Assembly (NCBI GenBank): GCA_030066015.1
Contig: JASJCL010000006.1
Coordinates: 1 to 64,000, forward strand
Reading direction: 5' to 3'
Length of the DNA: 64,000 nucleotides
From: Desulfosarcinaceae bacterium
GTDB lineage: Bacteria; Desulfobacterota; Desulfobacteria; Desulfobacterales; Desulfosarcinaceae
Of the stretch, positions 2,938 through 64,000 are shown piece after piece. How positions within the stretch are numbered: position 1 is the stretch's first letter; the number at the start of each line of letters is the position of its first letter. The position numbers and the translations under genes were made by a program. Below the pieces are notes generated by a model. The model had not been told where the DNA came from and did no database searches. It was given only the letters and a program-made list of their open reading frames with translations.

Positions 2938-3530
2938 TCGACTACCTCCAATGAAGGTTAGGGTTTTCTGATGAGATCGCAGCACGATGGGCTGTGCAGT
3001 TGGATGCGCATTCGATATGCGCCGCTGACGATAATTGCGCAACTTTCTCTTCATGCCGCTTCTCCAAATCTAAGGAATCCTAAAGAGATACCTGCCTTGA
3101 ACGCTTTAGTGATAGTGTAGTTGAACACTTTCACAGGTGCATCACGAGAATGTAACGAATCTTTAACACGTCTGTCGCAATCGTATTTCAACCAATCTGA
3201 CGGCAAAATCTTGTCTCAGCGGCTGGCCCCTCTGTAGCGAAAAAAGTGCACTCATGAAGGTAAGGAGCTGCGCATGATCGGGAGAATAGTAGAAAGAATT
3301 AGCGACAAACGTGAAAGGAAAGCGATGGTTTACCAGCAGCAAGCACTATGTCGCCTACGGTATCTTTTTAAGTGGGTTGGGAGGGATATGCTACTTGGAA
3401 CGTGAGGGGGAAATTGGGAAGGAAAATCGGTGTGGGATGCTGTTGATGGGAGGGGTATGGTGGGAGAATTGAACGGAGAACCTTCATGGGTGAACTTCAC
3501 CTTATTTTTATGGAGTTCACCTGCGGTGCT
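2938..3530. other. Intergenic region upstream of the propeller gene
   Basis: About 590 bases with no credible coding sequence. It holds the presumed promoter of the propeller gene (minus strand). Just downstream of the kinase stop there is an inverted repeat: GGTGAAC at 3489-3495 and GTTCACC at 3515-3521, with a third overlapping TTCACC at 3496-3501. It has no T-run and could be an operator or an mRNA hairpin. I could not pick a confident -35/-10 pair. Confidence 0.35.
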
Positions 3531-5027
3531 TCACGCCATATGCACTGGCAGATGAAACGAAAAACGGGCGCCGCGCCCGCTTTGGCTTTGAACTGTCACT
3601 GCACTGCCATGCAGTTCAATGATGCGTTTTGTTATGGCGAGCCCGAGACCCGAGCCTCCTGCGGTACTGCTCGACCCTGAATCATTGTACCTGCTTTTGT
3701 CCACCCGATAGAATCGGTCGAATATGTGGGGCAACTCGGCATCGGGAATGCCGATCCCAGTGTCGGAGACGCTGACGATCACATCATTGTCTCTGGAAAT
3801 AATGGTCACCAGGACGTCCCCCCCTTCCGGTGTATACCGAAGCGCATTCGTGATAAGGTTCTCAAGCGCTCTCTCGATGAGTCCTATATCTCCGTCCACC
3901 AGGGACACGCTTTTCCCGATGCACATATTCAAGCGTAACTTTTTCTCCTTGGCTTTGAGCTGATATTTTTGCAGGATGTCGCTGACCAGTTCTGCTAGAT
4001 TGAAAGGCTCTTTGCGCGCGTTTATTTCGTATGAATCCAGCTTGGCCAGCTGCAAGAGGTCGTCGACCAGCTTTGACAATCGATCGCAATGGCGATTGGC
4101 GATGAACAGGTATTCCCGACGGTCATCCCCTGTCAGCCGGTCGTCCCGCAGATACAGCGTTTCGATATATCCCTGAAGGGTCGCCAAGGGGGTTCGCAGG
4201 TCATGAGAGATGTTCGCTATCAGTTCGCGGCGCTGTCGATCGGCGGTGGTGAGGGTGTCCATCTGCGCCTCTATTTGACGGGCCATCTCTTGAAAGGTGA
4301 CGGATAACTGCCCAATTTCGTCTGAGGGTTTTCCCCGCCAGGCCTTCGGAAGTTTGAGCAGGTCGGTTCCACGGCCCCCCTTGAAAGCGTCGACAGCATC
4401 GGACAGCCGTCGCAAGCGGGCCGTCAGAGATGCGAATAGGAGTAAGCCTGCCAACAGCGCAAAGAGGAGGCTCGCTGCAATCATCCATGCGGATAACCGC
4501 AAGATGTGACTGCCCTTGATCTTGTCCACCACATTATCAAACGTCTCTCCGCCCAAGATAATGTAGAGATATCCCTGTAACACGCCATCGTGGAGGATCT
4601 TCGCAGCAGAAAACACCTTTGTGCTGTTTTGACTTCTCGGATCGTCTCCAACCACCAGCTGTTGCACCTCGCTGCTGAGCCATAGATGGACGGGTTCAAG
4701 GTCCACCTGATGTCGCTTGACCTTTCCGGGTGCGGCTGAATAGGCGATCACCCCCCCCTCTTTAGAGAGCAGGTAAAGTTCAATACTTGGATTGATAACC
4801 ATCAACGCGTGAAAGAGCCTTTCAAGTGCCGGTTTGTTAATCCGTCGATCGAGCATTAAGATCTCTTCATTTACAATATGTTGGGCGAGCTGCGCGTTGA
4901 GTCTTTGATTCACCTCCTGTTGGTACATCTGCGCTGCATACGTGGTGACCAGAACGAATGACAGGCCGACCAGAACAAACAAGAGCGTCAGGACGATGGC
5001 AAGCTTGGAATAGAGTGAGCGGAACAT
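3531..5027 (-). CDS. Membrane sensor histidine kinase (HAMP, HisKA, HATPase)
   Basis: 498 residues. TM helix 1 spans about 9-31 and TM helix 2 about 178-200, enclosing a periplasmic sensor domain of about 145 residues. A HAMP linker (about 200-255) follows, then HisKA with the phosphoacceptor in ISHDLRTPLATLQGYIETL (His275). The ATPase domain has the N box (ENLITNALRYTPEGG), G1 ([10 protein letters not shown]) and G2 (GSGLGLAITKRII) motifs. It sits 122 bases downstream of the OmpR-type regulator on the same strand, so the two form a classical two-component pair. The kinase core is of the PhoR/BaeS-like class and differs from the other kinases in this window. The signal is unknown; the linked secreted propeller gene is a possible target. 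Confidence 0.93.
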   Translation of the reverse strand: MFRSLYSKLAIVLTLLFVLVGLSFVLVTTYAAQMYQQEVNQRLNAQLAQHIVNEEILMLDRRINKPALERLFHALMVINPSIELYLLSKEGGVIAYSAAPGKVKRHQVDLEPVHLWLSSEVQQLVVGDDPRSQNSTKVFSAAKILHDGVLQGYLYIILGGETFDNVVDKIKGSHILRLSAWMIAASLLFALLAGLLLFASLTARLRRLSDAVDAFKGGRGTDLLKLPKAWRGKPSDEIGQLSVTFQEMARQIEAQMDTLTTADRQRRELIANISHDLRTPLATLQGYIETLYLRDDRLTGDDRREYLFIANRHCDRLSKLVDDLLQLAKLDSYEINARKEPFNLAELVSDILQKYQLKAKEKKLRLNMCIGKSVSLVDGDIGLIERALENLITNALRYTPEGGDVLVTIISRDNDVIVSVSDTGIGIPDAELPHIFDRFYRVDKSRYNDSGSSSTAGGSGLGLAITKRIIELHGSAVTVQSQSGRGARFSFHLPVHMA

Positions 5028-28007: not shown

Positions 28008-29717
28008 TCAGCGGCCGTGCCGATCTGGATGCGTCGTTTGTGGACGGCCTGCTGCGTGGCTCTCAGACGGCGTTGTCGGGTTCTGGGATGGCTGCGCTGC
28101 CAGGCCGTGGTCCGTCCCCAATGGCAGTAGGAAACTGAATTTACTGCCCTGACCCTCTCCCGGACTCTCCCCCCAGATGAACCCGTGATGCAATTGTACC
28201 AGTTGCGTCGTCAGCGCCAGCCCCAGACCGGTGCCCTCGTATTGCCGGCTGTAGCTGTTTTCCACCTGCTCGAAGGGGTTGAACACACGCGCCAGTTGAT
28301 CGCTTTGCAGACCAATACCCGTGTCCGCCACGGATACGAGCAGGTAGTGTCCGTCCTGGTGGCCGGTATCATCCGCACCGGCCGGGATCTCCTGAACCCC
28401 CAGATTGGGGGCCGTCGCCACGCCGCCTTCGATTCGGAGGAGGGTCGCGAGAAGGGTGATGCGGCCGCTCCGAGGCGTGAACTTGACCGCATTGGACAGC
28501 AGATTGTAGAGGATTTGTTTTAGCTTGCGTTCATCGGCGGTGATCTCTATGGGGAGTTGGCCAAATTCGGTCTTTACGTCGATCGCCTTCTTCATGGCCT
28601 TCTCCTTGATCATGATCAGGCTGTTCTCGAGGAGAGGGGCGATACCAAAACGGGTGCAAACCAGCTCCAGTTTGCCCGCTTCGACCTTGGAAAGATCCAG
28701 AATATCGTTGATCAGGGAGAGCAGGTGGCGACTGCTGCTCAAGGCATCGGACAAATACTCCGCCTGCATCTCATTCAGTTCTCCGAGGTGTTTGTCCACG
28801 ACAATTTCGGTAAAACCGATGATGTGGTTGAGGGGCGTTCGAAGCTCGTGGCTCATGTTGGCCAGGAAATCGCTCTTGGCTTTGTTGGCATTCTCGGCGG
28901 TCTCCTTCGCTTCGGTCAATTCTTGGGTGCGCTCGTGGACCTTCTGTTCGAGGGTCGCTTTGTGCTCGGCGAGTTGTCGGTCGCGCTGTTCGATCTGGGC
29001 AAGCATGGCGTTGAATCCGGAAATCAGGGTTCCCAGTTCATCCTGGCTGTGCTGCCTGGCGCGGATCGAATACACCTTATTCTCTTTCACCCGTCCGATG
29101 GTCTTTGACAGATGCAGGATCGGCGCGGTGATGAATCGCTGGACGCTGGCAGCGATGACGATCGACAGCAGAAAAATCACGATAAGGACGAGTCCGGAGA
29201 CCAGGGCCTGATCCTTCAGGCGATCGTTCAGGTGGGTCAGATCGGCTTGGAGCAGCACATATCCGATGCGTTCCCCATCCAGATCGATGGAATGGAGGAT
29301 TTCCAGATTGCCCGCATGGAAGCGGTGGGTTGAAGCGGTCGCTGCGCCGAGGCCGGCGTTGCCGATGGCCCCCATCCATGGCGAAGCCCCGGTCAGGTCG
29401 GCCGTTGGATCGCTGTAGGTTGCGAAGGGTCGCTTGTCGGTGGTCAGCAGTGCGGCATGGCGAATGCGATGGTCGGCCTTGAGCAGGACGAGCGTCTCCC
29501 TGGCGGCCGCCTTGTCATTGAAAACGATGGCCGAGCCACTATTGGCCCCGACGATCTGGGTCAGCGTGGTCAACTCATCGACCATCGCTCTGCGCGCGGT
29601 GAGTATTTCCATTCCAAAGAGGATACTGGCCGACAGCAGGAGCACCAGGGAGCAAGACGCCATGATAATGAGCGTCGTCTTGACCTTGAGGGAGAGATTT
29701 GAAAACGTGGGCGTCAT
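28008..29717 (-). CDS. Membrane histidine kinase with CHASE8-like sensor
   Basis: 569 residues. TM1 spans about 13-36 and TM2 about 172-194. The periplasmic domain between them includes [20 protein letters not shown], the signature of CHASE8 domains. HAMP (about 195-245) and a coiled coil (about 245-280) lead to HisKA with His290 ([18 protein letters not shown]). The ATPase domain has [22 protein letters not shown] and [12 protein letters not shown]. It is the last gene of a TonB receptor/YfiR-like/kinase unit (51 bases from the YfiR-like gene). In the Pseudomonas YfiBNR system a CHASE8-type membrane protein is controlled by YfiR, so the arrangement suggests the YfiR-like protein modulates this kinase's periplasmic domain. 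There is no receiver or adjacent regulator. Confidence 0.92.
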
Positions 29718-29767
29718 CGTTCACTCAACTGATTGCACCAACAGCGGTATTCCGAGGGACCAACACC

Positions 29768-30352
29768 CTACCGATCGTCGACAATCCGGGCCAGTTTCAG
29801 CAGATGAGAGCTCAATTTCAGCCCTTGCCGCAGACTGGTGTTATGGTTGATTTGGAAGCGGATCTTGTTGTCCTGGGTGACGAATTGAACGATACCGCCA
29901 CCCTTGGTGAATCCAGGCAGATCGCTAATGGTCAGCACAGGCGTGTCGCTGATCGTACCGACAAGGTCCGCTAAGGCGATTGTCTCCAGTTGCCCAACAT
30001 AAAGAATATGAAACCCTGCTGCGTCACCGAGATCCACGCTTCGATCGATCTGGAGCGAACGGCCCCGAATCTGCTTTGACGCGATGGCATCCCACGCCGC
30101 TCCGAATGGATCCCTGCCGATGATACCGATGCGGAAGGGCCCGGCATCATCCATAAAGGCAGCGGCTGGCCACTCGGTGAACTTGGCGAAGTTGAAGATC
30201 ATGGCGACCTTGATCACGTCTGCCTGGCGTGGCGAGGCCTCGGCCCAGGCAGCGCTTGGCGCCGGCAACAGCAGCAGAGCGCTAATGCTCAGCGCCAGCA
30301 GGAGCCGTTGGATGCGCTTGATCGCGCTGCGATGTATATCCCTTCGATTCAT
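29768..30352 (-). CDS. YfiR-like periplasmic protein (DUF4154)
   Basis: 194 residues with a signal peptide (hydrophobic stretch about 17-33, cleavage near AWAEA). The mature part matches YfiR/DUF4154: VIKVAMIFNFAKFTEWP near the start, FRIGIIGRDPFG, then FHILYVGQLE, TISDLPGF and IRFQINHNTSLRQGLKLSS near the end. The last two segments are typical of the family. YfiR is a periplasmic regulator that represses a membrane diguanylate cyclase in Pseudomonas. Here the partner is more likely the CHASE8-type kinase encoded 51 bases downstream. The gene starts 16 bases after the TonB-receptor stop, so the three genes form one operon. Confidence 0.9.
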   Translation of the reverse strand: MNRRDIHRSAIKRIQRLLLALSISALLLLPAPSAAWAEASPRQADVIKVAMIFNFAKFTEWPAAAFMDDAGPFRIGIIGRDPFGAAWDAIASKQIRGRSLQIDRSVDLGDAAGFHILYVGQLETIALADLVGTISDTPVLTISDLPGFTKGGGIVQFVTQDNKIRFQINHNTSLRQGLKLSSHLLKLARIVDDR

Positions 30353-46549: not shown

Positions 46550-48019
46550 GTGGCGGTTACCAACGACAACGTCGACGAATCGGTGCACGAATACTTCGGT
46601 CGCATCCTCGACCTGATCAGCGACGGCATCTACATCTCCGACCGCAATGGCCGCACCCTGCGGGTTAACAGCATGTACGAGCGGCTGACGGGACTGAAGA
46701 AATCCAGCCTGGTGGGGCGCAATGTGGAGGCCCTCACCAGCGAGTACAACTTCGATACCATCCTCAATCCGCGCATCGTCAAATCGGGCAAGCCGGCCAC
46801 CCAGGTTCAAACCGATCGCAGGGGCAAGAAACTGGTGCTCAACGGCTACCCCATCCTGGACGAATCCGGCGAGGTCGCCCTGGTGGTCACCTTTGTGCGC
46901 GACGTGACCCTCATGGCCCAGCTGCGGGAGCAGATTCTCTCCCAACGCAAGCTCATCGAGAAGTACCGCACCAACGTCCAGTACATCAATGAGGAGAGCG
47001 ATCAGCGGCGGCCGCTGATCGCCCACAGCCCGGTCATGGTGGCCCTCAATCAACAGGTCGAAAGCGTTGCCGCCACCGATGCCACCGTTTTGCTGCAGGG
47101 CGAAACCGGGGTGGGCAAGGATGTCTTCGCCCGTCGTATTCACCAGACCAGCAGCCGCGTCGGCAAACCGTTCGTCAAGGTGGATTGTCCCACGATTCCC
47201 GAATCGCTCTTCGAATCGGAGCTCTTCGGTTACGCCCCGGGTGCCTTCTCCGGAGCACACGCCAAAGGCAAGCTGGGCCTCCTAGAGATGGCCGACAAGG
47301 GGACGCTCTTCCTGGACGAGATTGGCGAGCTCCCCCACAACATGCAGGCAAAATTGTTGCGCGTGCTGCAGGATCGGGAATTCATGCGGGTGGGGTCCAC
47401 CAAGGTACGCAAGGTGGATGTGCGGGTCGTCTCCGCCACCAATCGCGATCTGGAACGCGAAGTCCATGCAAAGCGCTTTCGCAGCGATCTTTTCTACCGC
47501 CTGCGGGTGGCGGTCCTCACCCTGCCGCCCCTGCGGGATCGCCAGAGCGATATCGTCCCCCTGGCCACCCATTTCCTCGAACGCTACGCCAACCGCTACA
47601 AGAAAAAGCTGGTGTTCGATGCGGACACCCTGGCCGCCTTCTCCACTTACCAGTGGCCGGGCAATATCCGTGAAATTGAAAACCTCATCCAGAGCCTGGT
47701 GATCACCAATCAGAACGGCAAGATCCTCCCCTCCGATCTGCCCAGCAACATGGTCGGGCACCTGTCCCAAACCTGCCGGGATACCGCCCCCTTTCCCGCC
47801 GACCCACCCGCGCCGGCGGCACCCGATTTGGGATTCTCCGATCTGGTGGGCGAGCTCGACAACGGCAAACGCGGCCTCAAGGCCATCATGGCCGAGATCG
47901 AACGCAAGATTCTGTCCTACGCCCTGAACAAACACGGCTCCCATGCCGAGGTGGCCAAGCGCTTCAAGATCGACCGCTCGACCCTCTTCCGCAAACTGCG
48001 CGCCCAGAAGCGCAGCTAA
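46550..48019 (+). CDS. Sigma-54-dependent enhancer-binding protein (PAS, AAA+, Fis HTH)
   Basis: 489 residues from a GTG with GGAGG 4 bases upstream. A PAS sensor domain (about 15-130) reads ISDGIYISDRNGRTLRVN and ends in VVTFVRDVTLM. The AAA+ domain (about 158-390) has Walker A GETGVGKD, the sigma-54 contact loop as GAFSGA (Ser instead of the usual Thr, a tolerated variant), Walker B GTLFLDEIGEL and the R-finger region SDLFYRLRVAVLTLPPLRDR. The C-terminal Fis-type helix-turn-helix is SHAEVAKRFKIDRSTLFRKL. It has no receiver domain, so the PAS domain probably reads a cytoplasmic ligand. It is the only such activator in the window and the natural candidate to bind the five 18-bp repeats upstream of dctP, iseG and the amidohydrolase gene. 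Confidence 0.93.
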   Translation: MAVTNDNVDESVHEYFGRILDLISDGIYISDRNGRTLRVNSMYERLTGLKKSSLVGRNVEALTSEYNFDTILNPRIVKSGKPATQVQTDRRGKKLVLNGYPILDESGEVALVVTFVRDVTLMAQLREQILSQRKLIEKYRTNVQYINEESDQRRPLIAHSPVMVALNQQVESVAATDATVLLQGETGVGKDVFARRIHQTSSRVGKPFVKVDCPTIPESLFESELFGYAPGAFSGAHAKGKLGLLEMADKGTLFLDEIGELPHNMQAKLLRVLQDREFMRVGSTKVRKVDVRVVSATNRDLEREVHAKRFRSDLFYRLRVAVLTLPPLRDRQSDIVPLATHFLERYANRYKKKLVFDADTLAAFSTYQWPGNIREIENLIQSLVITNQNGKILPSDLPSNMVGHLSQTCRDTAPFPADPPAPAAPDLGFSDLVGELDNGKRGLKAIMAEIERKILSYALNKHGSHAEVAKRFKIDRSTLFRKLRAQKRS

Positions 48020-48110: not shown

Positions 48111-48226
48111 AGATATCAAGCATCAAATCAGGGACCTCGCCCCGTCCCGGGCTTCGTGCCTGCGGCGCGAGCGGGGAGGTCCACCATCTCCTTTCCCATT
48201 ATTTTCAAACCAATGAAGGTGTGGCC

Positions 48227-49381
48227 ATGCAAGTCCAGTCTTTCAACACGGTCAGACGTGTCGTCTTTGGTGTCGGCGCCCTGCAGTCCATCGGTGAAGA
48301 GATAACCCGCCTCGGGGGCAGCCGCGTGCTGGTGGTGACCGACCCGGGCATCAAGGCCGCCGGCCTGGTGGACAAACTCACCACCGTTCTCCAGCGGGCC
48401 GACCTGCCCCACCATGTATTCGCAGAGGTGGAGCCCGATCCGCGCGTGGAGGTCGTCGCCCAGAGCGTCGCCGCGGCCAAAGCCTTCGACCCCGACATCG
48501 TCGTGGGTTTGGGGGGTGGCAGTGCCTTGGACATCTCCAAGGTGACGGCCGTCATGCTGACGAATGACGGCTCCGTGGAAGATTATTTCGGCATGGAGCT
48601 GGTGCCCTCTCCGGGGCTTCCTCTGGTCCTCGTACCCACCACCGCCGGCACGGGCAGCGAGATGACCTCCATTTGTGTTCTCTCCGACACCAAAAACGAC
48701 GTCAAGAAAGGTGTCGTCAGCGAGCACATGTACGCGCGCGTAGCACTGCTGGACCCCGACCTCACCGTCGGGCTGCCCCAGCACGTCACTGCCACCACCG
48801 GCATGGACGCCTTCGTGCATGCGATGGAGTCCTACACGGGCGTGCGGGCCTCCTTTCTCACCGACACCCTCAATCTGCAGGCCATCCGCATGATCGCCGG
48901 AAACCTTCGGCGCGCCTATGCCAACGGCGATGACCTTGAGGCGCGCACCCAGATGCTGCAAGCCTCCTGCGTCGCCGGGATGGCCTTCTCCAACACCCAG
49001 AATGGCCTGGATCATGCCCTGGCCTTGGCCATCGGTGGACGCTTTCACCTGCCGCACGGCCTGCTCACGGCCTTCATCTGTCCTTGGGTGATGGCGTTCA
49101 ACCTCATGGCCTGTCCCGACAAGTTCATCAAGATCGCCGAGGCTTTTGGCGAGAACACGGCCGGACTGCCCAAAATGGAGGCCGCCAGCCTGGCGGTCAA
49201 GGCGGTCAAGGGCATCCTGAGCGATATGGGCATCTCCGATCGGCTGCGGGATTACGATGTCCCCCAGGAGGTCTTCCCCGATCTGGCCAAGGCCACCGTC
49301 GGCGCTGCCCGACTGATCAGCAACAACCCGAGGAGCGTCTCCGAGCAGGACGTTATCCGCCTCCTCGAAACCAACTACTGA
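48227..49381 (+). CDS. Iron-containing alcohol dehydrogenase (type III)
   Basis: 384 residues from the ATG at 48227 (AAGG upstream; a GTG two codons earlier is possible). NAD-binding GGGSALDISK and TAGTGSEMT are family hallmarks. Iron ligands are visible as Asp and His in GMDAFVHAMES and two His in NGLDHALALAIGGRFHLPHG. Members reduce aldehydes (acetaldehyde, lactaldehyde, 3-hydroxypropanal) or, as SarD in Bilophila, sulfoacetaldehyde to isethionate. Near an isethionate-lyase locus both acetaldehyde/ethanol conversion and sulfoacetaldehyde reduction are plausible. No taurine-degradation gene (Tpa, Ald, Xsc) is in the window to favour the latter. It lies directly downstream of the sigma-54 activator gene with its own promoter. 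Confidence 0.9.
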   Translation: MQVQSFNTVRRVVFGVGALQSIGEEITRLGGSRVLVVTDPGIKAAGLVDKLTTVLQRADLPHHVFAEVEPDPRVEVVAQSVAAAKAFDPDIVVGLGGGSALDISKVTAVMLTNDGSVEDYFGMELVPSPGLPLVLVPTTAGTGSEMTSICVLSDTKNDVKKGVVSEHMYARVALLDPDLTVGLPQHVTATTGMDAFVHAMESYTGVRASFLTDTLNLQAIRMIAGNLRRAYANGDDLEARTQMLQASCVAGMAFSNTQNGLDHALALAIGGRFHLPHGLLTAFICPWVMAFNLMACPDKFIKIAEAFGENTAGLPKMEAASLAVKAVKGILSDMGISDRLRDYDVPQEVFPDLAKATVGAARLISNNPRSVSEQDVIRLLETNY

Positions 49382-52918: not shown

Positions 52919-54127
52919 CTAGGACCCGATCACGGCAGCCGTCTGGCGGGCGATCTCCAACTCCTCGTTGGTGGGAATCACCAGCACCTTTATGGGGCTT
53001 TCGGGGACGCTGATGGCAGCGGCACGGCCCTGCCAGTCGGTGTTGCGCCGGGGGTCGATGACAATGCCCAGCTTGTCCAGTCCCTGGCAAACGCCGTGGC
53101 GCACAACGGGATCGTTCTCGCCGATGCCGGCGGTGAAGATGATGGCGTCCACCTCACCCAGCACGGCCAGATAGGCCCCCACGTAATGTTTGTAGCGGTA
53201 GATCAGCATCTCCAGCGCCAACCGTGCGCGGTCGTCGCCGGCGGCCGCGTCCTGGTGAATATCCCGCAGATCGTTGCGGCCGCAGATGCCCTTAAGGCCG
53301 CTCTCCTTGGTGAGCAGGCGCATCACATCGCTCAGGGGCATCCCTTGCTGGACAGCGATATACTCGACGATGGCGGGGTCGATGTCACCGCTGCGGGTGC
53401 CCATGATCACCCCTGCCAGTGGCGTCATCCCCATGGAGGTGTCAACGCTGCGTCCATTGGCGATGGCCGTGATGGAGGCCCCGTTGCCCAGGTGCAGGGA
53501 GATGAGATTGGTCTGCGCCAGGGGCTTGTCCAGCAGCCGGGCGGCCTCACCGGCCACGTACCGGTGAGAGGTGCCGTGGAAACCGTAGCGCCGGATGCCC
53601 AACGCCTCGTAGAGGGCATACGGCAGGGCGTACTGGTAGGCGTGGGGGGGGATGCTCTGGTGGTAGGCCGTGTCGAAGACGGCCACCTGAGCAGTTTGCG
53701 GAAATAACTTTATGGCGGTACGGATGCCGGCCAAGCCACCGGGATTGTGCAGAGGGGCCAGCGGGATGCAGGCTTCGATATTGGCCATCACCCTTTCGTC
53801 GATGCGGGTCGACGCGTGGAAAAGCTCCCCGCCATGGACCACACGGTGGCCGATGGCGGCGATATCTGCTTGGGTGGCCACCACGCCGGTGTCTTCGGCC
53901 GTGAGCAGGGCCACGGCCATCTCCATCCCGGTGGTATGGTCATCGATGGCAGCGTCGCGGCGGATTTTCTCGGGCGCCCCGGCCCTGCCATACCTGCGGT
54001 GGGTGATCGTACCAGTCGCTTCACCGATGCGTTCCACCAGCCCCTCGGCCAGAAGCCGTTCATCCCGCATGTCGATGAGCTTGTACTTGATGGAAGAGCT
54101 GCCGGAATTTAGGACGAGGATGTTCAT
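52919..54127 (-). CDS. ackA: Acetate kinase
   Basis: 402 residues, the usual length. It opens with MNILVLNSGSSSIKYKLID (phosphate-binding Asn and Ser), has GFHGTSHRYV with the catalytic His/Arg region, LGNGASITAI and TAGIGENDPVVR near the end. It makes ATP and acetate from acetyl phosphate. In isethionate respiration, acetaldehyde from the lyase is oxidised through acetyl-CoA and acetyl phosphate, and acetate kinase is the ATP-yielding step. Its position beside the TRAP transporter and the glycyl radical enzyme supports a C2 product such as acetaldehyde. No phosphotransacetylase or acylating aldehyde dehydrogenase is in the window. No sigma-54 promoter was found in front of it. Confidence 0.96.
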   Translation of the reverse strand: MNILVLNSGSSSIKYKLIDMRDERLLAEGLVERIGEATGTITHRRYGRAGAPEKIRRDAAIDDHTTGMEMAVALLTAEDTGVVATQADIAAIGHRVVHGGELFHASTRIDERVMANIEACIPLAPLHNPGGLAGIRTAIKLFPQTAQVAVFDTAYHQSIPPHAYQYALPYALYEALGIRRYGFHGTSHRYVAGEAARLLDKPLAQTNLISLHLGNGASITAIANGRSVDTSMGMTPLAGVIMGTRSGDIDPAIVEYIAVQQGMPLSDVMRLLTKESGLKGICGRNDLRDIHQDAAAGDDRARLALEMLIYRYKHYVGAYLAVLGEVDAIIFTAGIGENDPVVRHGVCQGLDKLGIVIDPRRNTDWQGRAAAISVPESPIKVLVIPTNEELEIARQTAAVIGS

Positions 54128-54415: not shown

Positions 54416-55732
54416 CTACCGGCTTAAAAACGTCGGCAGCCAGGTGGCGATGGCGGGAAAGAAAACGATGAGCAGCAGCCCGAAGACCTGTAGGACCATG
54501 AACTGTATCATACCGATGTAAATGTCCTTCAACTCCCAGTTGGGTACCACCCCCTTGAGAAAGTAGGCCGAAAGGGCCACCGGGGGCGATAGCCAGGCGG
54601 TCTGCAGGGTCACCGCCACCAGGGTGCAGAACCAGAGCAGGTTGTAGTCCATCTGCCGGATCAGGGGCATGAGGATGGGTACGATGATAAGGATGATGGG
54701 CACCCATTCCAATGGCCAGCCGAGGATGAAGATCAGGGCCAAGATCAGGAGTAGCATCAGCATGGGGGGCAGGTTCATTCCCATGAGCAGGTCGGTGAGC
54801 ATGGTGGCCGATCCCAGTCGCGAGAAAACCGACCCAAAAAAGTTGGAGGCCGCCACCAGGAGCAAGATCATGGCGGAGATCTCAACGGTTCGCAGGGCGC
54901 TGCTCTTGAGACCCTCCCAGCTGATCCGTCGGTAGATCAGGGTGAGGACCAAGCTGCCAAAGGCGCCGGCGGCGGCGCCCTCGGTGGGTGTGGCCATACC
55001 GGCCATGATACTGCCCAGCACGGCCAGGATGAGGGTCAGGACCGGGATCACGCCGAGGGCCAGCTCCTTCGCCACCCACGTCATCGAGGTGGCGCGCAGC
55101 TCTTTGGGCAGCGGCGGACCGAGCTCCGGGTTGATCCAGCAGCGGATCAGGGTATAGCCGATGTAAATGCCGGCCAGAATAATGCCCGGAAAGATCGCCG
55201 CAGCGAAAAGATCGGTGACCGGGACACCGACCACCGGTCCCATGACCACCAGCATGATGCTGGGGGGAATGAGGATGCCCAGAGTACCCCCGGCACTGAT
55301 GCAACCCGCGGAGAGGCGCACGTTGTATTTGCTCTCGCGCATCGTGGGGGCCGCCATGACGCCGAGGAGGGTGATGGAGGAACCCACGATGCCGGTGGCC
55401 GCGGCAAAGATGGTGGCCGTGGAGGTCACCGCCAGGTAGAGTGATCCGGGCAGGCGCGCCAGCATCATTTGAAAGGCCTTGAAGAGGCGGTCCATGAGGC
55501 CCGAACTCTCCAAAATATAGCCCATGAAGAGAAAGAAGGGCACGGCCGAGAGGACCGTGTCTGTCATGACAGAGTAAAATTGAAGGGTCATCAGATGGAA
55601 GACGACCTTGCCGATGCCGATGTAGCCGGTCACCAAGCTGAGGAATATCAGCGTGAAGGAGATGGGGAAACCGACCAGGATGAAGAAGAACAGACTCGCC
55701 AATGCGAGCAGTCCGAGCACTTCGGGACTCAT
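54416..55732 (-). CDS. dctM: TRAP transporter large permease, DctM type
   Basis: 438 residues with about twelve membrane helices. Hallmarks include VGFPISFTLIFLSLVTGYIG near the start, AVPFFLFMGYILESSGLMDR and GILIPPSIMLVVMG, with ATPTEGAAAGAFGSLVLTLI later. It carries the sodium-driven transport path of the TRAP system. The start has AAGGAG overlapping the DctQ stop, so the two are coupled. It is the last gene of the dctPQM operon and is followed by an intrinsic terminator. The substrate, by context, is isethionate. Confidence 0.95.
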   Translation of the reverse strand: MSPEVLGLLALASLFFFILVGFPISFTLIFLSLVTGYIGIGKVVFHLMTLQFYSVMTDTVLSAVPFFLFMGYILESSGLMDRLFKAFQMMLARLPGSLYLAVTSTATIFAAATGIVGSSITLLGVMAAPTMRESKYNVRLSAGCISAGGTLGILIPPSIMLVVMGPVVGVPVTDLFAAAIFPGIILAGIYIGYTLIRCWINPELGPPLPKELRATSMTWVAKELALGVIPVLTLILAVLGSIMAGMATPTEGAAAGAFGSLVLTLIYRRISWEGLKSSALRTVEISAMILLLVAASNFFGSVFSRLGSATMLTDLLMGMNLPPMLMLLLILALIFILGWPLEWVPIILIIVPILMPLIRQMDYNLLWFCTLVAVTLQTAWLSPPVALSAYFLKGVVPNWELKDIYIGMIQFMVLQVFGLLLIVFFPAIATWLPTFLSR

Positions 55733-55747
55733 AATAAGACTCCTTGT

Positions 55748-56317
55748 CTAGGTTTCCACGCCTTCTACTTCTTCATGGATATCCACGCCGGTTTTAACGG
55801 CATAGAGGCTCTTGAGCAGCTCCGATACCCCCTGGATGAGGAGCAAGAGGGTGGCGATGGGAATGCACAGCTTGAGTGGCCAGATATAGGGCAACCAAGG
55901 GCTGGAAACGATACGTTCCTGGAGCATGGTGGACCGCCAGGCGTACTTCCAGCCGACCCATAGAAAGATGCCCAGGCCGGGAAAGTAGAGCAGGATGTAG
56001 CAGGCCGAGTCCACCATGGCCTTGGTGCGGGTGGACCATTTTTCGTAAAGCCAGTCGGTGCGGATGTGCTGCTGGCGCTGGAGCGCGTACGCCGAACCGA
56101 TCATGTAAAGCGCCCCGTACAGCATGGTGGTGAGGTCATTGGCCCAAATGGTGGGCGCGTTGAAAAAGTAGCGCGCCGTGACTTCCCATACCAGGCTGAA
56201 GATCATGGGGAAGATGAGCACGGCAGCGGCCCGGCCCGACCAGATGCTGATCGAATCGATCACCGCGATCGTCTTGAGCAGGCCCTCGGGGGGCTGTTGC
56301 AATCCTTGTTTATCCAT
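55748..56317 (-). CDS. dctQ: TRAP transporter small permease, DctQ type
   Basis: 189 residues from the ATG at 56317; a TTG four codons earlier is the alternative. There are four membrane helices, with the family segment VWEVTARYFFNAPTIWANDL and QHIRTDWLYEKWSTRTK. It is the small membrane subunit that associates with DctM. It follows the DctP gene by 153 bases, a gap that contains a strong intrinsic terminator, and precedes DctM by 15 bases. Read-through of that terminator should set a low level of the membrane subunits relative to the binding protein. Confidence 0.93.
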   Translation of the reverse strand: MDKQGLQQPPEGLLKTIAVIDSISIWSGRAAAVLIFPMIFSLVWEVTARYFFNAPTIWANDLTTMLYGALYMIGSAYALQRQQHIRTDWLYEKWSTRTKAMVDSACYILLYFPGLGIFLWVGWKYAWRSTMLQERIVSSPWLPYIWPLKLCIPIATLLLLIQGVSELLKSLYAVKTGVDIHEEVEGVET

Positions 56318-56409
56318 TACCACACCCAATCTTTAGAGATTCCCGGCGCATTCGCCCGCCGTCGCGTCCCGCCCTGAGCGGGCCTGCGGGCTGCATGGGT
56401 ATGCACGCA

Positions 56410-56457
56410 AAAAAAGCGTACCGGGGACGGTGGGTTCCGCGGCTCCCCGGTACGCTT
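56410..56457 (-). terminator. Internal terminator/attenuator between dctP and dctQ
   Basis: Perfect 14-bp arms AAGCGTACCGGGGA (56414-56427) and TCCCCGGTACGCTT (56444-56457), 16-base loop. On the minus strand the stem is followed at once by TTTTT, a textbook rho-independent terminator. It lies inside the operon, 12 bases after the dctP stop. It must be leaky, since dctQ and dctM have no visible promoter of their own, and would give excess binding protein. Confidence 0.8.
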
Positions 56458-56469
56458 GTACCGATGGCG

Positions 56470-57594
56470 CTATTTGTAGCCGACGACCCCTTTGTCCAGG
56501 GCGTTCTGGCCCATTTTGTAGTAAGTGCCGTTGGCTCTGGCCTCATAGGGCACGGTCAGTTTGGCCCATTCCTGCATCTCGGTGAGAACCTTCTTGAAGA
56601 AGGCGTCCTTGGCCGCGTATTTGTCCATGATCTGCTGGGTGGCCGCCATGTAGGCCTCGAAGTAATCGTCTGGCGTATCATGGATCTTGACGTTCTCGTT
56701 GGTCACCAGTTCCTTCAGGGCCATGCTGTTCTGGCTGACGTTCCAATTATAGGAATCGGCGATACAGGACATGATGCCGGCGTTGAAGATCGCCTTGAGG
56801 TCTTCCGGCAGCTTGCCCCACCAGTCGAGATTCACGTAGACGTCGCCAATGGAGATGGCTTGATGGAGGCCCTGGAGATAGTAGTTCTTCCAGACGGCGC
56901 TCAGGCCCAGATTGCGGTCGTCGGCCGGGCTGATCCACTCGGCGGCGTCGATGACGCCTCGCTGGGCGGAAGGCACGATCTCGCCACCGGGCATGGAGAC
57001 GGCCGGGATGCCGATCAGCTTCAGCGACTCAGAGGGGATACCGGGCGGCGAGCGGAATTTGGTTTTGGTGAGGTCGCCCACGGAGCTGATGGGATTTTTG
57101 AACCAGCCGAAGGGTTCGGGACCCATGGGCATGCAGATGAAGCCTTTGATGTTGTAGCCGAGGATTTTGGTGAAATACTCCTGGTACAATTTGTCGCCGC
57201 CGCCATCATAGATCCAGGAGACGGTGCTGAGTTGATCGAGACCCATGCCGAGACCGGCCGTGGGAGCGGAGAAGAGCAGACCGGCGGGGTGTTTGCCGGA
57301 CCAGTAATGGGTCCACGCCATACCGCCGTTGACAATCCCCTGATCCACGGCGTCGAGTATCTCAAAGGCACCGACCACGGCACCGGCCGGCAGCACCTCG
57401 ATGGTCAGCCGCTTGGCCGACATCTCCTCGATCCGATTGGCCATGCGCTCGATGAGTTTGTAGTACACACTGGCGCTGGGGACGGCGGTTTGAATCTGCA
57501 GATTGTAGCTCTTCGCCATGGCGCCGGGGGCCCAGATCATCGCCGCACAGATCGCCACAGCCAGGACACCGATAAACCATTTGCCTCTTGTCAT
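56470..57594 (-). CDS. dctP: TRAP transporter solute-binding protein, DctP/TakP type
   Basis: 374 residues, AAGGAGG 5 bases before the ATG and a signal peptide (about 1-28, cleavage after AMA). The fold is DctP: TEVLPAG-like IEVLPAGAVVGAFEILDAV, then FRSPPGIPSESLKLIG, whose Arg is the usual ligand for a carboxylate or, in sulfonate binders, a sulfonate, and AAEWISPADDRNLGL. The set resembles TakP-like proteins of the 360-370-residue class. It captures the substrate in the periplasm for DctQM. It is divergent from iseG; a sigma-54 promoter at 57830-57845 and shared upstream repeats imply co-induction with the lyase. Isethionate is the inferred ligand. Confidence 0.94.
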   Translation of the reverse strand: MTRGKWFIGVLAVAICAAMIWAPGAMAKSYNLQIQTAVPSASVYYKLIERMANRIEEMSAKRLTIEVLPAGAVVGAFEILDAVDQGIVNGGMAWTHYWSGKHPAGLLFSAPTAGLGMGLDQLSTVSWIYDGGGDKLYQEYFTKILGYNIKGFICMPMGPEPFGWFKNPISSVGDLTKTKFRSPPGIPSESLKLIGIPAVSMPGGEIVPSAQRGVIDAAEWISPADDRNLGLSAVWKNYYLQGLHQAISIGDVYVNLDWWGKLPEDLKAIFNAGIMSCIADSYNWNVSQNSMALKELVTNENVKIHDTPDDYFEAYMAATQQIMDKYAAKDAFFKKVLTEMQEWAKLTVPYEARANGTYYKMGQNALDKGVVGYK

Positions 57595-57845: not shown

Positions 57846-58031
57846 GCGGCATTGTTATAGAGCGGGATACCGAGAGAGGTACTGCCGTCAGATCGTCTCA
57901 AGTATCTAATTCGAGACATTTTCCGTGCGTTGCACGTCCAGATTTGGGCGTAAAAAAAAAGTGACACACCTGTTTCACAGCGCTGTTTGCGCGGCGGCCC
58001 GATTCGACAGGGGGCGAAAATGCAGAGTGCC

Positions 58032-58093: not shown

Positions 58094-58111
58094 GGTTGTA
58101 TTTTTGCACCA
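58094..58111. promoter_or_regulatory. Enhancer-type 18-bp inverted repeat, site 2
   Basis: GGTTGTATTTTTGCACCA: 12 of 13 fixed positions of the shared motif. Its start is 62 bases after that of site 1, close to six helical turns. Confidence 0.65.
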
Positions 58112-58156: not shown

Positions 58157-58284
58157 TTGCGCCAATCGCCCTGCCGGAAGGGTTCTGCGGTACCTCTAAA
58201 ACTCGGATGGTTGGGCTGCAATTAAATTGTAATTTCAATAGTTTAATTAAGAAATACCGAATTCCGACCTGGATCGGCCTTGGC

Positions 58285-58300
58285 AGGCATGCCCTTTGCT
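58285..58300 (+). promoter_or_regulatory. Sigma-54 (-24/-12) promoter of iseGH
   Basis: AGGCATGCCCTTTGCT matches TGGCACGNNNNTTGCW at 10 of 12 fixed bases, including the invariant GG and GC at 10-base spacing and a perfect TTGCT. The start point would be near 58311, giving a leader of about 120 bases before the AAGGAGA ribosome site and ATG of iseG. Confidence 0.75.
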
Positions 58301-61037: not shown

Positions 61038-61985
61038 ATGTCCCTCTCAGACCAGAAGCAGACCGGCATCGTCTTCAACATCCAGCACTACTCGGTTCAC
61101 GACGGTCCCGGGATCCGCACGGTGGTCTTCCTCACCGGCTGTCCGCTGCGCTGCCGCTGGTGCAGCAACCCCGAGTCCCAGCGAAGCGGACCCCAGTTGG
61201 CCTATAACCGCGACAAATGCCTCAGCTTCGAGCACTGCATCCGCTGCATGGAAGTGTGCAGCGCGGGGGCGATCCAGAAGGGGGCCGACAACAAGGCCAC
61301 CATCGATTTCGAGATCTGCACCAATTGCCTGCTGTGCGCCGACATCTGCCCGCCAACGGCCATCCGGGTGTACGGGGAGGAGAAGAGCGTCAAGGCGGTG
61401 ATCGATTCGGTGGAAGGGGACAGCATCTTCTACTCCCGTTCGGGGGGAGGGCTGACCCTCAGCGGCGGTGAACCCCTGCATCAACCGGCGTTTGCCATCG
61501 CGCTGCTCAGGGAGGCTCGCCGCCGGCGAATCCACACCGCCATGGAGACTTGCGGCCACTGTAAGACCGAGGATCTGCTCGAGGCGGGTGCGTATCTCAA
61601 CCACGTCCTCTACGACATTAAGACCATGGACGCCGAGGTGCACCGGGCCGGCACGGGGGTATCCAACGAACACCTCCTGAGCAACTTCCTCGCGCTGCGG
61701 GATGCCTGGCCGAAACTGCCCATTCGGGTGCGGACCCCCATCGTTCCGGGTGTCAACGACAGCGTCGAGGCCATCCGGGCGATCTTGGAATATATCAAGG
61801 AGGTCCCCAACCTCACCTATGAGATGCTGCCCTATCATCGCATGGGCTCTCCCAAATACGGGTACCTCGGCAGCTGTTTCCCCATGGGCGATGTCAAGCT
61901 GGACGAAGCGGTGATGCCGGCGCTGGAGAAGCTTCTCGATGCGGACTACGCCCACCTGCGTCCCCGCAGCACGCGCAAAAACTGA
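61038..61985 (+). CDS. iseH: Glycyl radical enzyme activase (radical SAM)
   Basis: 315 residues (also called IslB). The radical SAM cluster motif is CPLRCRWC in TGCPLRCRWCSNPESQ. An inserted ferredoxin-like domain with eight Cys follows, CLSFEHCIRCMEVC and CTNCLLCADICPP, as in activases of the CutD/IslB class. SAM-binding segments include SGGEPLHQPAFAIALLREAR and TCGHCKTEDLLEAG. It uses a 4Fe-4S cluster and S-adenosylmethionine to abstract hydrogen from Gly801 of the lyase. It is oxygen-sensitive. It lies 124 bases after iseG behind a leaky terminator and shares its sigma-54 promoter. Confidence 0.93.
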   Translation: MSLSDQKQTGIVFNIQHYSVHDGPGIRTVVFLTGCPLRCRWCSNPESQRSGPQLAYNRDKCLSFEHCIRCMEVCSAGAIQKGADNKATIDFEICTNCLLCADICPPTAIRVYGEEKSVKAVIDSVEGDSIFYSRSGGGLTLSGGEPLHQPAFAIALLREARRRRIHTAMETCGHCKTEDLLEAGAYLNHVLYDIKTMDAEVHRAGTGVSNEHLLSNFLALRDAWPKLPIRVRTPIVPGVNDSVEAIRAILEYIKEVPNLTYEMLPYHRMGSPKYGYLGSCFPMGDVKLDEAVMPALEKLLDADYAHLRPRSTRKN

Positions 61986-62249: not shown

Positions 62250-63194
62250 TTAATTCTTCATGCGGGCCATCACTTCGCGGACGATCTCGCCCACCAGATC
62301 GGCCGAGACCTGGGCCGGCGCAGCCGTATGGCGATAACCACCGGTCGCGCTCATTGCGCTGCTCTGGAGCCCCAGCAGGCGGGCGGCGTTGTCGTGCATG
62401 ATCTTCTGGCGCACGTCGGGTTTGAAGTCCAGTTGCTTATACGTCTCCAAGGCCTTGCGGAAATCAACGAAGGGGTGTGCGCTGGCGTAGAGAATCTTGT
62501 CGGCGATCATGGTATTGGCGGCCTGAACATAGGCCTCGGCCATTGGGGAGAATTCGTACTCGGACAGATCGATATAGACGTTGCGGTTGCGTTCGGCCAC
62601 GATGATGGCTTCGTTGACCCAAGGATAGCCGCCGTGACTGATGATGATCTTCAGTTCGGGAAAATCGCGGGCGGCAATATCGATGTAACGCGGGGCGACA
62701 TGGTCGATGATCGCGTTGGGGACCAGGGTGGCCGGTCCGGTGGTAAACACGATGGGGATGTCGAGCTCACAACACTTGGAATAGATAGGATAGTATTTGG
62801 CATCGTTGGCGTAGATCTGGGCCAGATACGGATCGACCGCCGCCCCCCGCATGCCCAGATCGTTGACGGCATGCTTGAGTTCCTCGATGGCCTTCATGCC
62901 CTTGTGGGGATCGCAGCCGATGAACCCAATGAACTTGTTGGGAAACGCCTTGACGAACTCGATAACGCTGTCGTTATTGGATTTGGAGCCATAGGTGGTT
63001 TCGCAGTCTCTACCAGTGATGACCGCCTTGACCACGTTGTAACGGTCGAGATCGGCGACGACTTCCGGCACCGTTTGCGGCTTCATCTTCGAAAAGTCGA
63101 TGTGTTCGCAGAGCCCCTTGAACATTTTGCTGTTCTGGATACCATTGATGGTCTCGGCAGTGTTGGGCCGAAAGCGGAAGTCAATCACATTCAT
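62250..63194 (-). CDS. Amidohydrolase-fold (amidohydrolase_2) protein with lost metal ligands and C-terminal helical tail
   Basis: 314 residues from the ATG at 63194 (AAGGGG 9 bases upstream). The TIM-barrel layout of the amidohydrolase_2 family is clear, but its metal site is not. The first-strand HxH is Arg7-x-Arg9 (VIDFRFRPN). The His of strand 5 is Thr (IPIVFTTG), and the strand-8 Asp is Ala (ILYASAHPF, usually GSDYPF). Only the strand-6 His is kept (ISHGGYPW). It is therefore either a non-metal enzyme, a decarboxylase/hydratase variant or a non-catalytic binding protein. After the barrel an Ala/Ser/Gly/Thr-rich linker leads to a terminal amphipathic helix (SADLVGEIVREVMARMKN). A sigma-54 promoter and two enhancer repeats place it under the same control as iseGH and dctPQM. 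Confidence 0.85.
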   Translation of the reverse strand: MNVIDFRFRPNTAETINGIQNSKMFKGLCEHIDFSKMKPQTVPEVVADLDRYNVVKAVITGRDCETTYGSKSNNDSVIEFVKAFPNKFIGFIGCDPHKGMKAIEELKHAVNDLGMRGAAVDPYLAQIYANDAKYYPIYSKCCELDIPIVFTTGPATLVPNAIIDHVAPRYIDIAARDFPELKIIISHGGYPWVNEAIIVAERNRNVYIDLSEYEFSPMAEAYVQAANTMIADKILYASAHPFVDFRKALETYKQLDFKPDVRQKIMHDNAARLLGLQSSAMSATGGYRHTAAPAQVSADLVGEIVREVMARMKN

Positions 63195-63414: not shown

Positions 63415-63430
63415 AGCAAAGAAAATGCCA
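63415..63430 (-). promoter_or_regulatory. Sigma-54 (-24/-12) promoter of the amidohydrolase-like gene
   Basis: On the minus strand TGGCATTTTCTTTGCT has perfect TGGCA and TTGCT elements, 10 of 12 fixed bases, with GG and GC separated by 10. Transcription would start near 63403, with a leader of about 209 bases, very like the 225-base leader of dctP. Confidence 0.72.
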
Positions 63431-63585
63431 TCGTCACTTGTTCTCCTGGCGGACCGCCTCGGGATGCGCGCAGAATTGGTGCGGGGGCCGTGCTGGTGAA
63501 GGATTCCGCTGAATAGCGGACCATCGTCTTGTGATTGGGCCCCATGCCGGCGGCGCAAACATCATCTCCGAGAACGTGTGGAGAA

Positions 63586-63603
63586 TGGGGCACAAATGCA
63601 CCA
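63586..63603. promoter_or_regulatory. Enhancer-type 18-bp inverted repeat, site 4
   Basis: TGGGGCACAAATGCACCA: 12 of 13 fixed positions of TGKTGYRNNNNNRCAMCA, with no poly-A/T centre, so its match depends on the arms alone. It is 156 bases upstream of the sigma-54 promoter of the amidohydrolase-like gene. Confidence 0.6.
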
Positions 63604-63658: not shown

Positions 63659-63676
63659 GATTGCATTTTTGCCCCA
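63659..63676. promoter_or_regulatory. Enhancer-type 18-bp inverted repeat, site 5 (weaker)
   Basis: GATTGCATTTTTGCCCCA: 10 of 13 fixed positions, with the same TTTTT centre as sites 1 and 2. It is 73 bases, about seven helical turns, further upstream than site 4. Confidence 0.5.
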
Positions 63677-64000
63677 TCTCCCCGCTACGTCCTGTTGGAA
63701 ACCATTCCTAATTATCGCTTATCTTCTTGGAATCTCACTCTATCGATCGTCCCAAGACCGACCTCGCCAAATGGCAGACCGCCGGGGGCAGTCGCAAAAT
63801 TAAGACTCCCTCACCACGCCGCTCCCAAATTGCGCCGGCAAAATGGGCCGGCTTCGCCAAGGGTCGATTCCGCCCTGAAATCAACAGATGCAAGCATCTC
63901 CTCTTCTTCTCCCTCACCGTCAAGGCCGACGTCCGGGCAGTGGCACGATGGTTGCTTTGTCACCCCGTGACACCACCGTCTCCCGCCAGGAGCCGATGAT

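Follow-up and report, generated by a model that had tools for sequence, protein, structure and literature searches.

Why should a gene cluster for the radical cleavage of a sulfonate carry, 1.3 kb from its lyase gene, a protein of the amidohydrolase fold in which the usual metal site is gone? We addressed this question for a stretch of 64,000 nucleotides from a Desulfosarcinaceae contig (the window), in which the gene occupies positions 62250..63194 on the minus strand (ATG at 63194, stop codon at 62250-62252) and, as judged from its open reading frame and a profile match, encodes a 314-aa protein that we refer to as RxRP-type. The reading that we favor, at a probability of roughly 0.55, is that this metal-free protein would be a dedicated accessory of the lyase, delivered to the shell where a microcompartment exists.

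The fold is not in doubt, since the window protein scores 143.1 bits against PF04909 (Amidohydro_2; cut-off, 26.4) in a profile search; its AlphaFold2 model has a mean pLDDT of 90.2. In ACMSD-like metal-dependent amidohydrolases, the ligands are an HxH motif on beta 1, a His on beta 5 and an Asp on beta 8, and this set is not found in the window protein. More specifically, Arg7 and Arg9 stand at the HxH positions of beta 1 (RxR; codons of Arg7-Phe8-Arg9 at 63168..63176, minus strand), Thr151 at the beta-5 His position and Ala239 at the beta-8 Asp position, leaving His187 of beta 6 (within SHGG) as the sole remaining metal ligand. Counting HxH as two, four of the five ligand positions are changed, and the protein presumably binds no metal. 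Substrates of amidohydrolases are bound at the C-terminal strand ends of the barrel, and in the model Arg7, Arg9, Arg62, Asp121 and His187 lie just past the C-terminal ends of strands 1, 2, 4 and 6. That three arginines stand where a metal would sit suggests an anionic ligand, and binding of an anion by the Arg7/Arg9 pair is plausible.

An earlier note on this DNA had claimed that the metal site was lost and had proposed examining orthologues for RxR, or for an intact HxH that would speak against the claim. The loss is confirmed: RxR is present and HxH absent in all 71 orthologue loci (the window's included), a count biased by the inclusion of IDFRF in one of the two patterns used for the scan; 66 of the 71 loci match that pattern, and the five that match only the other one also have RxR. 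Conservation reaches further. Among 127 aligned RxR proteins (the 71 orthologue loci plus 56 paralogues and cousins, i.e., 54 paralogue frames and two L124 cousins), R7, R9, R62, H187 and P241 are invariant, only Asp or Glu occurs at position 121, and A, S, T or G is found at position 239; the orthologues themselves carry Thr, Ala or Ser at 151 and Ala at 239. The conservation of Arg7, Arg9, Arg62, Asp/Glu121 and His187 across all 127 led us to reject a decayed pseudogene. For the purposes of this analysis, we named the group, with BB4693 (PDB 3irs) included, the RxRP family and defined it by the presence of R7, R9, R62, D/E121 and H187 and the absence of the beta-8 Asp, a combination found in the window protein (residues of 3irs were taken from a printed alignment only). 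Alignment A2 holds 43 of the 70 named loci and the window protein.

In 17 outgroup amidohydrolases, the R7 position is Arg in two, the H187 position is His in 16, and HxH is present in just six; thus, the special feature is the fixed RxR rather than the loss of HxH. A quick tree built from these 17 outgroup rows and a hand-picked 21 of the 71 orthologues, together with the paralogue frames, places the RxR proteins on one side of a branch and the outgroups on the other (SH-aLRT 98). All 21 orthologue rows bear the label lyase-linked, including L061, L077, L092 and L114, whose stretches contain no lyase. For the tree and the residue counts, paralogue frames were trimmed to begin near the beta-1 motif; the untrimmed reading agreed.

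The family is also expanded. Among the matches listed for the window protein against 40 carrier genomes (E up to 1e-12), as many as 25 fall in one genome, that of a Mailhella-like gut bacterium. RxR is present in all 54 of the paralogue frames that we read, which come from gut Desulfovibrionaceae and all lie in 40 chosen stretches. Where such paralogues have no lyase, the five Pfam-annotated stretches contain TRAP transporters (four) or TTT transporters (one), with sigma-54 activators in two and old-yellow-enzyme-like reductases in two. The RxRP paralogues of L175, L178, L182, L183 and L187, near TRAP/TTT transporters, sigma-54 activators and PF00724 flavin reductases, perhaps belong to unknown anaerobic respirations. 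As a separate observation from translations, L124 carries two tandem distant RxR cousins (1683-3550), with a thiolase-like gene on one side and a TRAP transporter on the other; no lyase was seen by eye in this 13-kb contig. RxR is thus the mark of a conserved family, and in the stretches that we read, some members have no lyase nearby.

The lyase gene of the window (P0002; 58433..60913, plus strand) encodes a glycyl radical sulfonate lyase of the IslA/IseG type, since alignment with 5ymr shows that Arg187, Gln191, Arg676 and Phe680 of IseG are all kept; chain 6lon, which we take to be HpsG, has Ile where IseG has Phe680. P0002 scores 1557.6 bits against NF048011, an NCBIfam model of the HpsG type, but its residues and the PDB ranking favor an isethionate-type lyase, so that we rejected assignment as HpsG. 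The NF048011 annotation, '(2S)-3-sulfopropanediol dehydratase', may mislabel IslA, because P0002 far exceeds its cut-off of 1000. A radical SAM activating enzyme of the lyase is encoded at 61038..61985 on the plus strand (NF048010, 453.8 bits; cut-off, 430). The window also contains an iron alcohol dehydrogenase gene (48221..49381, plus strand) whose nearest model is SarD, at 460.8 of the 700 bits set as cut-off; an acetate/propionate kinase gene (52919..54127, minus strand; TIGR00016, 479.3 bits, cut-off 293.4); and TRAP transporter genes (54416..57594, minus strand), i.e., in the profile search, DctM (below cut-off), a small-subunit candidate that matches no family and a DctP-like gene, whose products likely take up the sulfonate.

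The contig runs on past the window to 78266, and a bacterial microcompartment (BMC) locus lies just beyond the window edge. From 64124 (plus strand), it encodes EutQ-like, phosphotransacetylase, PduS-like, EutN-like and acylating dehydrogenase proteins, and five PF00936 shell-domain matches fall at contig positions 65984-69107; the profile was used for shell domains only, and the other operon genes were assigned from translations and conserved gene order. Shell proteins, a glycyl radical enzyme with its activase, an acylating aldehyde dehydrogenase and phosphotransacetylase, the components of a GRM-type BMC/sulfonate-lyase (GUF) locus, are thus all encoded. GUF loci were reportedly identified by Zarzycki and others (cited in PMC6325248). 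Given this operon and a lyase with the sulfonate-binding residues of IseG, the locus is therefore an isethionate-type microcompartment locus of the sort reported from Bilophila wadsworthia (PMC8667426).

The amidohydrolase and lyase genes appear to share their control. A sigma-54-type promoter, ATGGCATTTTCTTTGCT, precedes the amidohydrolase gene (63415..63431, minus strand) and another the lyase gene (58284..58300, plus strand), both scoring 27 of 31 in a weighted scan with an assumed consensus and assumed weights; a third, divergent site, GTGGCACGATGGTTGCT (63940..63956, plus strand), has the top scan score in the window and points toward the BMC operon starting at contig position 64124. One site in the window scores 30 and five score 27, including 63431-63415, and 36 sites in 64 kb reach 25, so the score alone is weak evidence. 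Recurrence in close orthologues is better evidence for the promoter: TGGCA[TC]-type sites occur within 250 bases upstream in all five of the closest orthologues (L005-L009), and in none of the three orthologues at 55-57% identity (L010-L012). Among the upstream regions of the 71 orthologue loci, which come from related orthologues and are not independent, 19 score at least 27, versus 0.5% of single-base shuffles.

A 15-base motif, TGGGGCANAAATGCA, has four copies in the 64-kb window at up to two mismatches, where 0.59 are expected and none of 100 shuffles reaches four. Two of these enhancer-like sites, both exact, form an inverted pair before the amidohydrolase gene (TGGGGCACAAATGCA at 63586..63600, plus strand; TGGGGCAAAAATGCA at 63662..63676, minus strand), and two with two mismatches each form an inverted pair before the lyase gene (58010..58024, plus strand; 58097..58111, minus strand). 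With one substitution allowed, this looser motif was absent upstream of eight of nine other orthologues and had one off-consensus match, at L064, which limits the enhancer evidence to the window's genome. A PAS-type sigma-54 activator gene (46550..48019, plus strand; PF00158 and PF00989) is, by its position, the likely regulator of the locus. Claims made previously that the amidohydrolase gene has its own sigma-54 promoter and enhancer sites, and that it is co-regulated with the lyase, are thus upheld by the recurrence of site 63431-63415 in L005-L009 and by the inverted motif pairs before both genes, the enhancer part applying to this genome alone.

Co-occurrence ties the two genes together more widely. 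When both proteins were searched in 195 relatives, 12 had the lyase at 69% identity or more, and an orthologue at 55% or more was found in nine of these 12 versus none of the 183 others; in eight of those nine, both genes lie on one contig, at most 10 kb apart. Genomes G171, G141 and G120 have an IslA-type lyase, no orthologue was found in them and none adjoins the lyase, which rules out a strict requirement of the RxRP protein for the lyase. On a contig of G171 (L118), a lyase 89% identical to the window's is followed by an activase and then by a frame that, from its translation, is a GMC-type oxidoreductase in the place of the amidohydrolase; this contig may be chimeric. A scan of named genomes yielded 70 loci in Thermodesulfobacteriota, Bacillota and one Actinomycetota, six of which (L048, L050, L051, L052, L057 and L091) overlap with the survey of 195 relatives. 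With the window locus included, 53 of the 71 loci have a lyase at 60% identity or more within the stretch. Among the 18 that do not, only L053, L058, L061 and L064 have 10 kb on both sides, and in two of these four the lyase shares the contig, about 15 kb off, whereas in the other two it is on a different contig. Each of the 40 carrier genomes searched gave a lyase-type match at 1e-200, and one of the 40 is also among the nine.

Paralogues extend the linkage to other lyases: 18 of the 54 have a divergent lyase no more than 6 kb away, and the sulfonate triad Arg, Gln, Arg is retained in 16 of these 18 lyases. Six stretches contain HpsG-type lyases; an RxRP relative is within reach in two of them (L155 and L164) and in none of the other four, which are short; nor was an RxRP relative present in the fetched stretches around the lyases of L158, L159 and L191-L194. 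An association with IslA alone is ruled out by the relatives beside HpsG-type and other lyases. We observed that clade A paralogues and their lyases diverge in step (n = 9, r = 0.92, reached in 1 of 5000 permutations), as do orthologues and theirs (n = 42, r = 0.90, 0 of 5000), and that clade B pairs have no clear co-divergence (n = 9, r = 0.35, 358 of 5000); these mirror-tree sets contain near-identical pairs from related genomes, and co-divergence of the orthologue pairs is also expected from shared descent. The glycyl radical enzyme clades of L155-L174 and L191-L194 (Mailhella-like and other gut Desulfovibrionaceae) keep Arg/Gln/Arg and differ from IslA and HpsG elsewhere (for example, SNRSSLQWC at substrate positions); they are possible lyases for unknown sulfonates.

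Partnership with the lyase pathway, as suggested in the earlier note, is supported by these co-occurrences (9/12 versus 0/183; 53/71; 40/40), as are metal-site loss and co-regulation by the results above; RxR is not a feature private to the pathway. Our data indicate a finding larger than had been stated, namely a conserved family and a candidate microcompartment tail. The RxRP proteins are a conserved, expanded and probably metal-free family that often accompanies radical desulfonation.

The tail begins where the orthologues diverge, past residue 277. In the window protein, residues 278-297 form a linker predicted to be disordered (AlphaFold2 pLDDT <50; codons at 62304..62363, minus strand), and residues 298-311 form a helix in the model (mean pLDDT 86 over residues 301-310; codons at 62262..62303, minus strand), a candidate BMC encapsulation peptide. 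Where the stretch examined contains shell genes (25 loci), the tail is always at least 20 aa long. The 46 loci without shell genes in the stretch comprise nine tailed and 37 tail-less ones, three of the latter (L075, L079 and L110) stopping at a contig edge, where tails cannot be judged. In all nine tailed cases, the genome carries shell genes, either on the gene's own contig, 10-13 kb off (L049, L059, L062 and L063), or on other contigs (L084, L085, L096, L109 and L113). As a control, shell genes were found anywhere in 10 of the 32 genomes of tail-less rows (34 loci, with L075, L079 and L110 left out). One case goes against the rule: L091 (G222:C10) has a tail-less orthologue at 29020-29853, and shell genes, possibly those of a different microcompartment, lie 12.4 kb away on that contig (42264-59275).

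By eye, we distinguish four or more tail types with no relation to one another, among them IVREVMxR helices, a helix found in Bacillota, and the MPLPFxPF and IVAELKK tails; the tails were likely gained several separate times. Those of L093 and L105 end in IVAELKKVM, and the adjacent aldehyde dehydrogenases end in IVAELKKAL; that of L113 is unlike a targeting helix. MPLPFxPF-like tails occur on the amidohydrolases of L071, L072, L073, L074 and L076, which are Desulfovibrio/Bilophila-type microcompartment loci, and no other frame in these five loci matches them; a related TPLPFxPY tail is found at L084 and L085, which have no shell genes in the stretch examined. Sequence and model agree in placing a terminal peptide on a linker, as in BMC lumen cargo, and the tail is probably a shell-targeting peptide.

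The sequences themselves show the changed residues and how strictly these are conserved, the gene's linkage to the lyase, the association of tails with shell genes and the co-divergence of clade A with its lyases; that the RxRP protein is a working enzyme or a binding protein for a small anion is what we infer. In the lyase-accessory reading, the protein would be made under the same sigma-54 control as the isethionate-type glycyl radical lyase, Arg7, Arg9, Arg62, Asp121 and His187 would form the mouth of the active site in the metal's place, and in microcompartment lineages the amphipathic C-terminal helix on its flexible linker would deliver the protein into the shell. Sulfite combines spontaneously with aldehydes and ketones into adducts. 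Because lyases acting on isethionate and dihydroxypropanesulfonate release sulfite together with an aldehyde or a ketone, the most attractive step for the accessory is splitting of such an adduct. Tentatively, then, the RxRP protein may split 1-hydroxyethanesulfonate, the acetaldehyde-sulfite adduct: Arg7, Arg9 and Arg62 would hold its sulfonate, His187 and Asp121 would move a proton, and free acetaldehyde would pass to the acylating dehydrogenase and sulfite to the reductase. Adduct splitting accounts for the tie to the lyase whether or not a shell is present; left unexplained are the flavin-reductase-associated relatives and the lyase carriers that lack an RxRP protein. As a function of the whole family, adduct splitting is unlikely because some relatives sit with TRAP/TTT transporters and flavin reductases and have no lyase in the stretch. 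Also against it is the clade A member L155, which lies beside an HpsG-type lyase, the ketone product of which should bind sulfite less tightly. A more speculative extension, which we consider doubtful, is that the RxRP proteins form a new class of metal-free enzymes with three arginines in the metal's stead, the lyase-linked members of which split bisulfite adducts of aldehydes or ketones, each matched to its lyase's product, with several gains of microcompartment tails, so that radical desulfonation would commonly bring along an adduct-clearing enzyme.

Nearly as likely as adduct splitting is a role on the substrate side, in which an isomerase, dehydratase or metal-independent hydrolase with a sulfonate or carboxylate as its target makes or frees the substrate of the lyase, each paralogue being tuned to one lyase or reductase. 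Such a role fits the pairing of paralogues with different lyase clades, the co-divergence of clade A with its lyases, and the company that lyase-distant paralogues keep in the five annotated stretches (transporters, flavin reductases and sigma-54 activators), which is what one expects of a catabolic enzyme; furthermore, decarboxylases and the LigJ hydratase are among the nearest folds after 3irs. What keeps this role improbable is that there is no obvious need to pack a substrate-making step with the lyase and that isethionate can be imported directly; moreover, in the portion of the account available to us, taurine is converted to isethionate by Tpa and SarD with no amidohydrolase-fold protein of the RxRP type involved (PMC8667426).

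Somewhat less probable again is a non-catalytic partner that binds the lyase, activase or shell and organizes the core. Loss of the usual metal ligands and linkage to the lyase with and without nearby shell genes would both follow, and a binding partner would co-diverge as well, but the invariant charged residues at the strand ends of the barrel mouth speak against it, as does the retention of the same five residues in paralogues with no lyase in the stretch. The proposal of the earlier note, a sulfonate- or sulfite-binding partner, here read as a carrier or buffer, now appears quite unlikely: three conserved arginines and a histidine line the barrel mouth and sulfite is a product of the lyase, but one site per 35-kDa protein makes a poor buffer for a bulk product, and family members occur with no sulfonate lyase in the stretch. 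Finally, we consider it very improbable that the protein is a normal metal-dependent amidohydrolase whose ligands happen to be unusual, or that the gene is a decayed bystander: clear though the PF04909 match is, four of five ligand positions are changed in the orthologues, and another 56 relatives retain the same five charged residues.

If the lyase-accessory reading holds, its bearing is wider than this locus. Radical desulfonation supplies sulfite for respiration and hence hydrogen sulfide in gut and sediments, and an overlooked lyase-associated protein that is probably co-packaged, and that diversified in step with the lyase in one clade, points to a missing step of the pathway. The RxRP family is also a clean case of arginines replacing a metal site under strong conservation, and it flags several clades of gut Desulfovibrionaceae lyases that lack a known substrate.

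A literature search that covered few subscription papers returned no published account of the arginine site or of a role for an RxRP protein. The islAB BMC cluster of Bilophila wadsworthia does include HMPREF0179_00649, listed as 'hypothetical protein, predicted amidohydrolase function (IMG)' (PMC8667426, Table 1, in a source available in part), and, judged by gene order, its run from EutN to PduS plus the amidohydrolase matches that of L076, a Bilophila relative. In vitro, IseG with its activase alone yielded acetaldehyde and sulfite at 1:1:1, and the accessible part of that report mentions no such accessory protein (PMC6453916), which counts against the lyase-accessory reading.

Among known structures, the closest is BB4693 of Bordetella bronchiseptica (PDB 3irs/3k4w), an uncharacterized TIM barrel that is both the best PDB sequence match of the window protein (3.9e-35) and the best fold match of its model (VIA Z 31.4, rmsd 2.6, 267 aligned residues, 30% identity; the next Z is 26.1). 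In the printed alignment, BB4693 shares IDFRLRP, GRN, SHG and TAYP with the window protein at the same positions and differs at beta 7, where 3irs has SPDMY and the window protein DLSEYE. The group of ACMSD and gamma-resorcylate decarboxylases (2dvt, 3s4t and 2hbv) has the same barrel (Z 20.9 to 23.3) and the same beta-6 His, whereas their HxH, beta-5 His and beta-8 Asp are all replaced in the window protein. Encapsulation peptides of BMC cargo consist of a terminal helix on a flexible linker. The window protein has this arrangement and its relatives in shell-gene loci carry tails, but here the tail sits on an accessory protein, and the MPLPFxPF type is proline-rich and, by sequence, unlike a helix.
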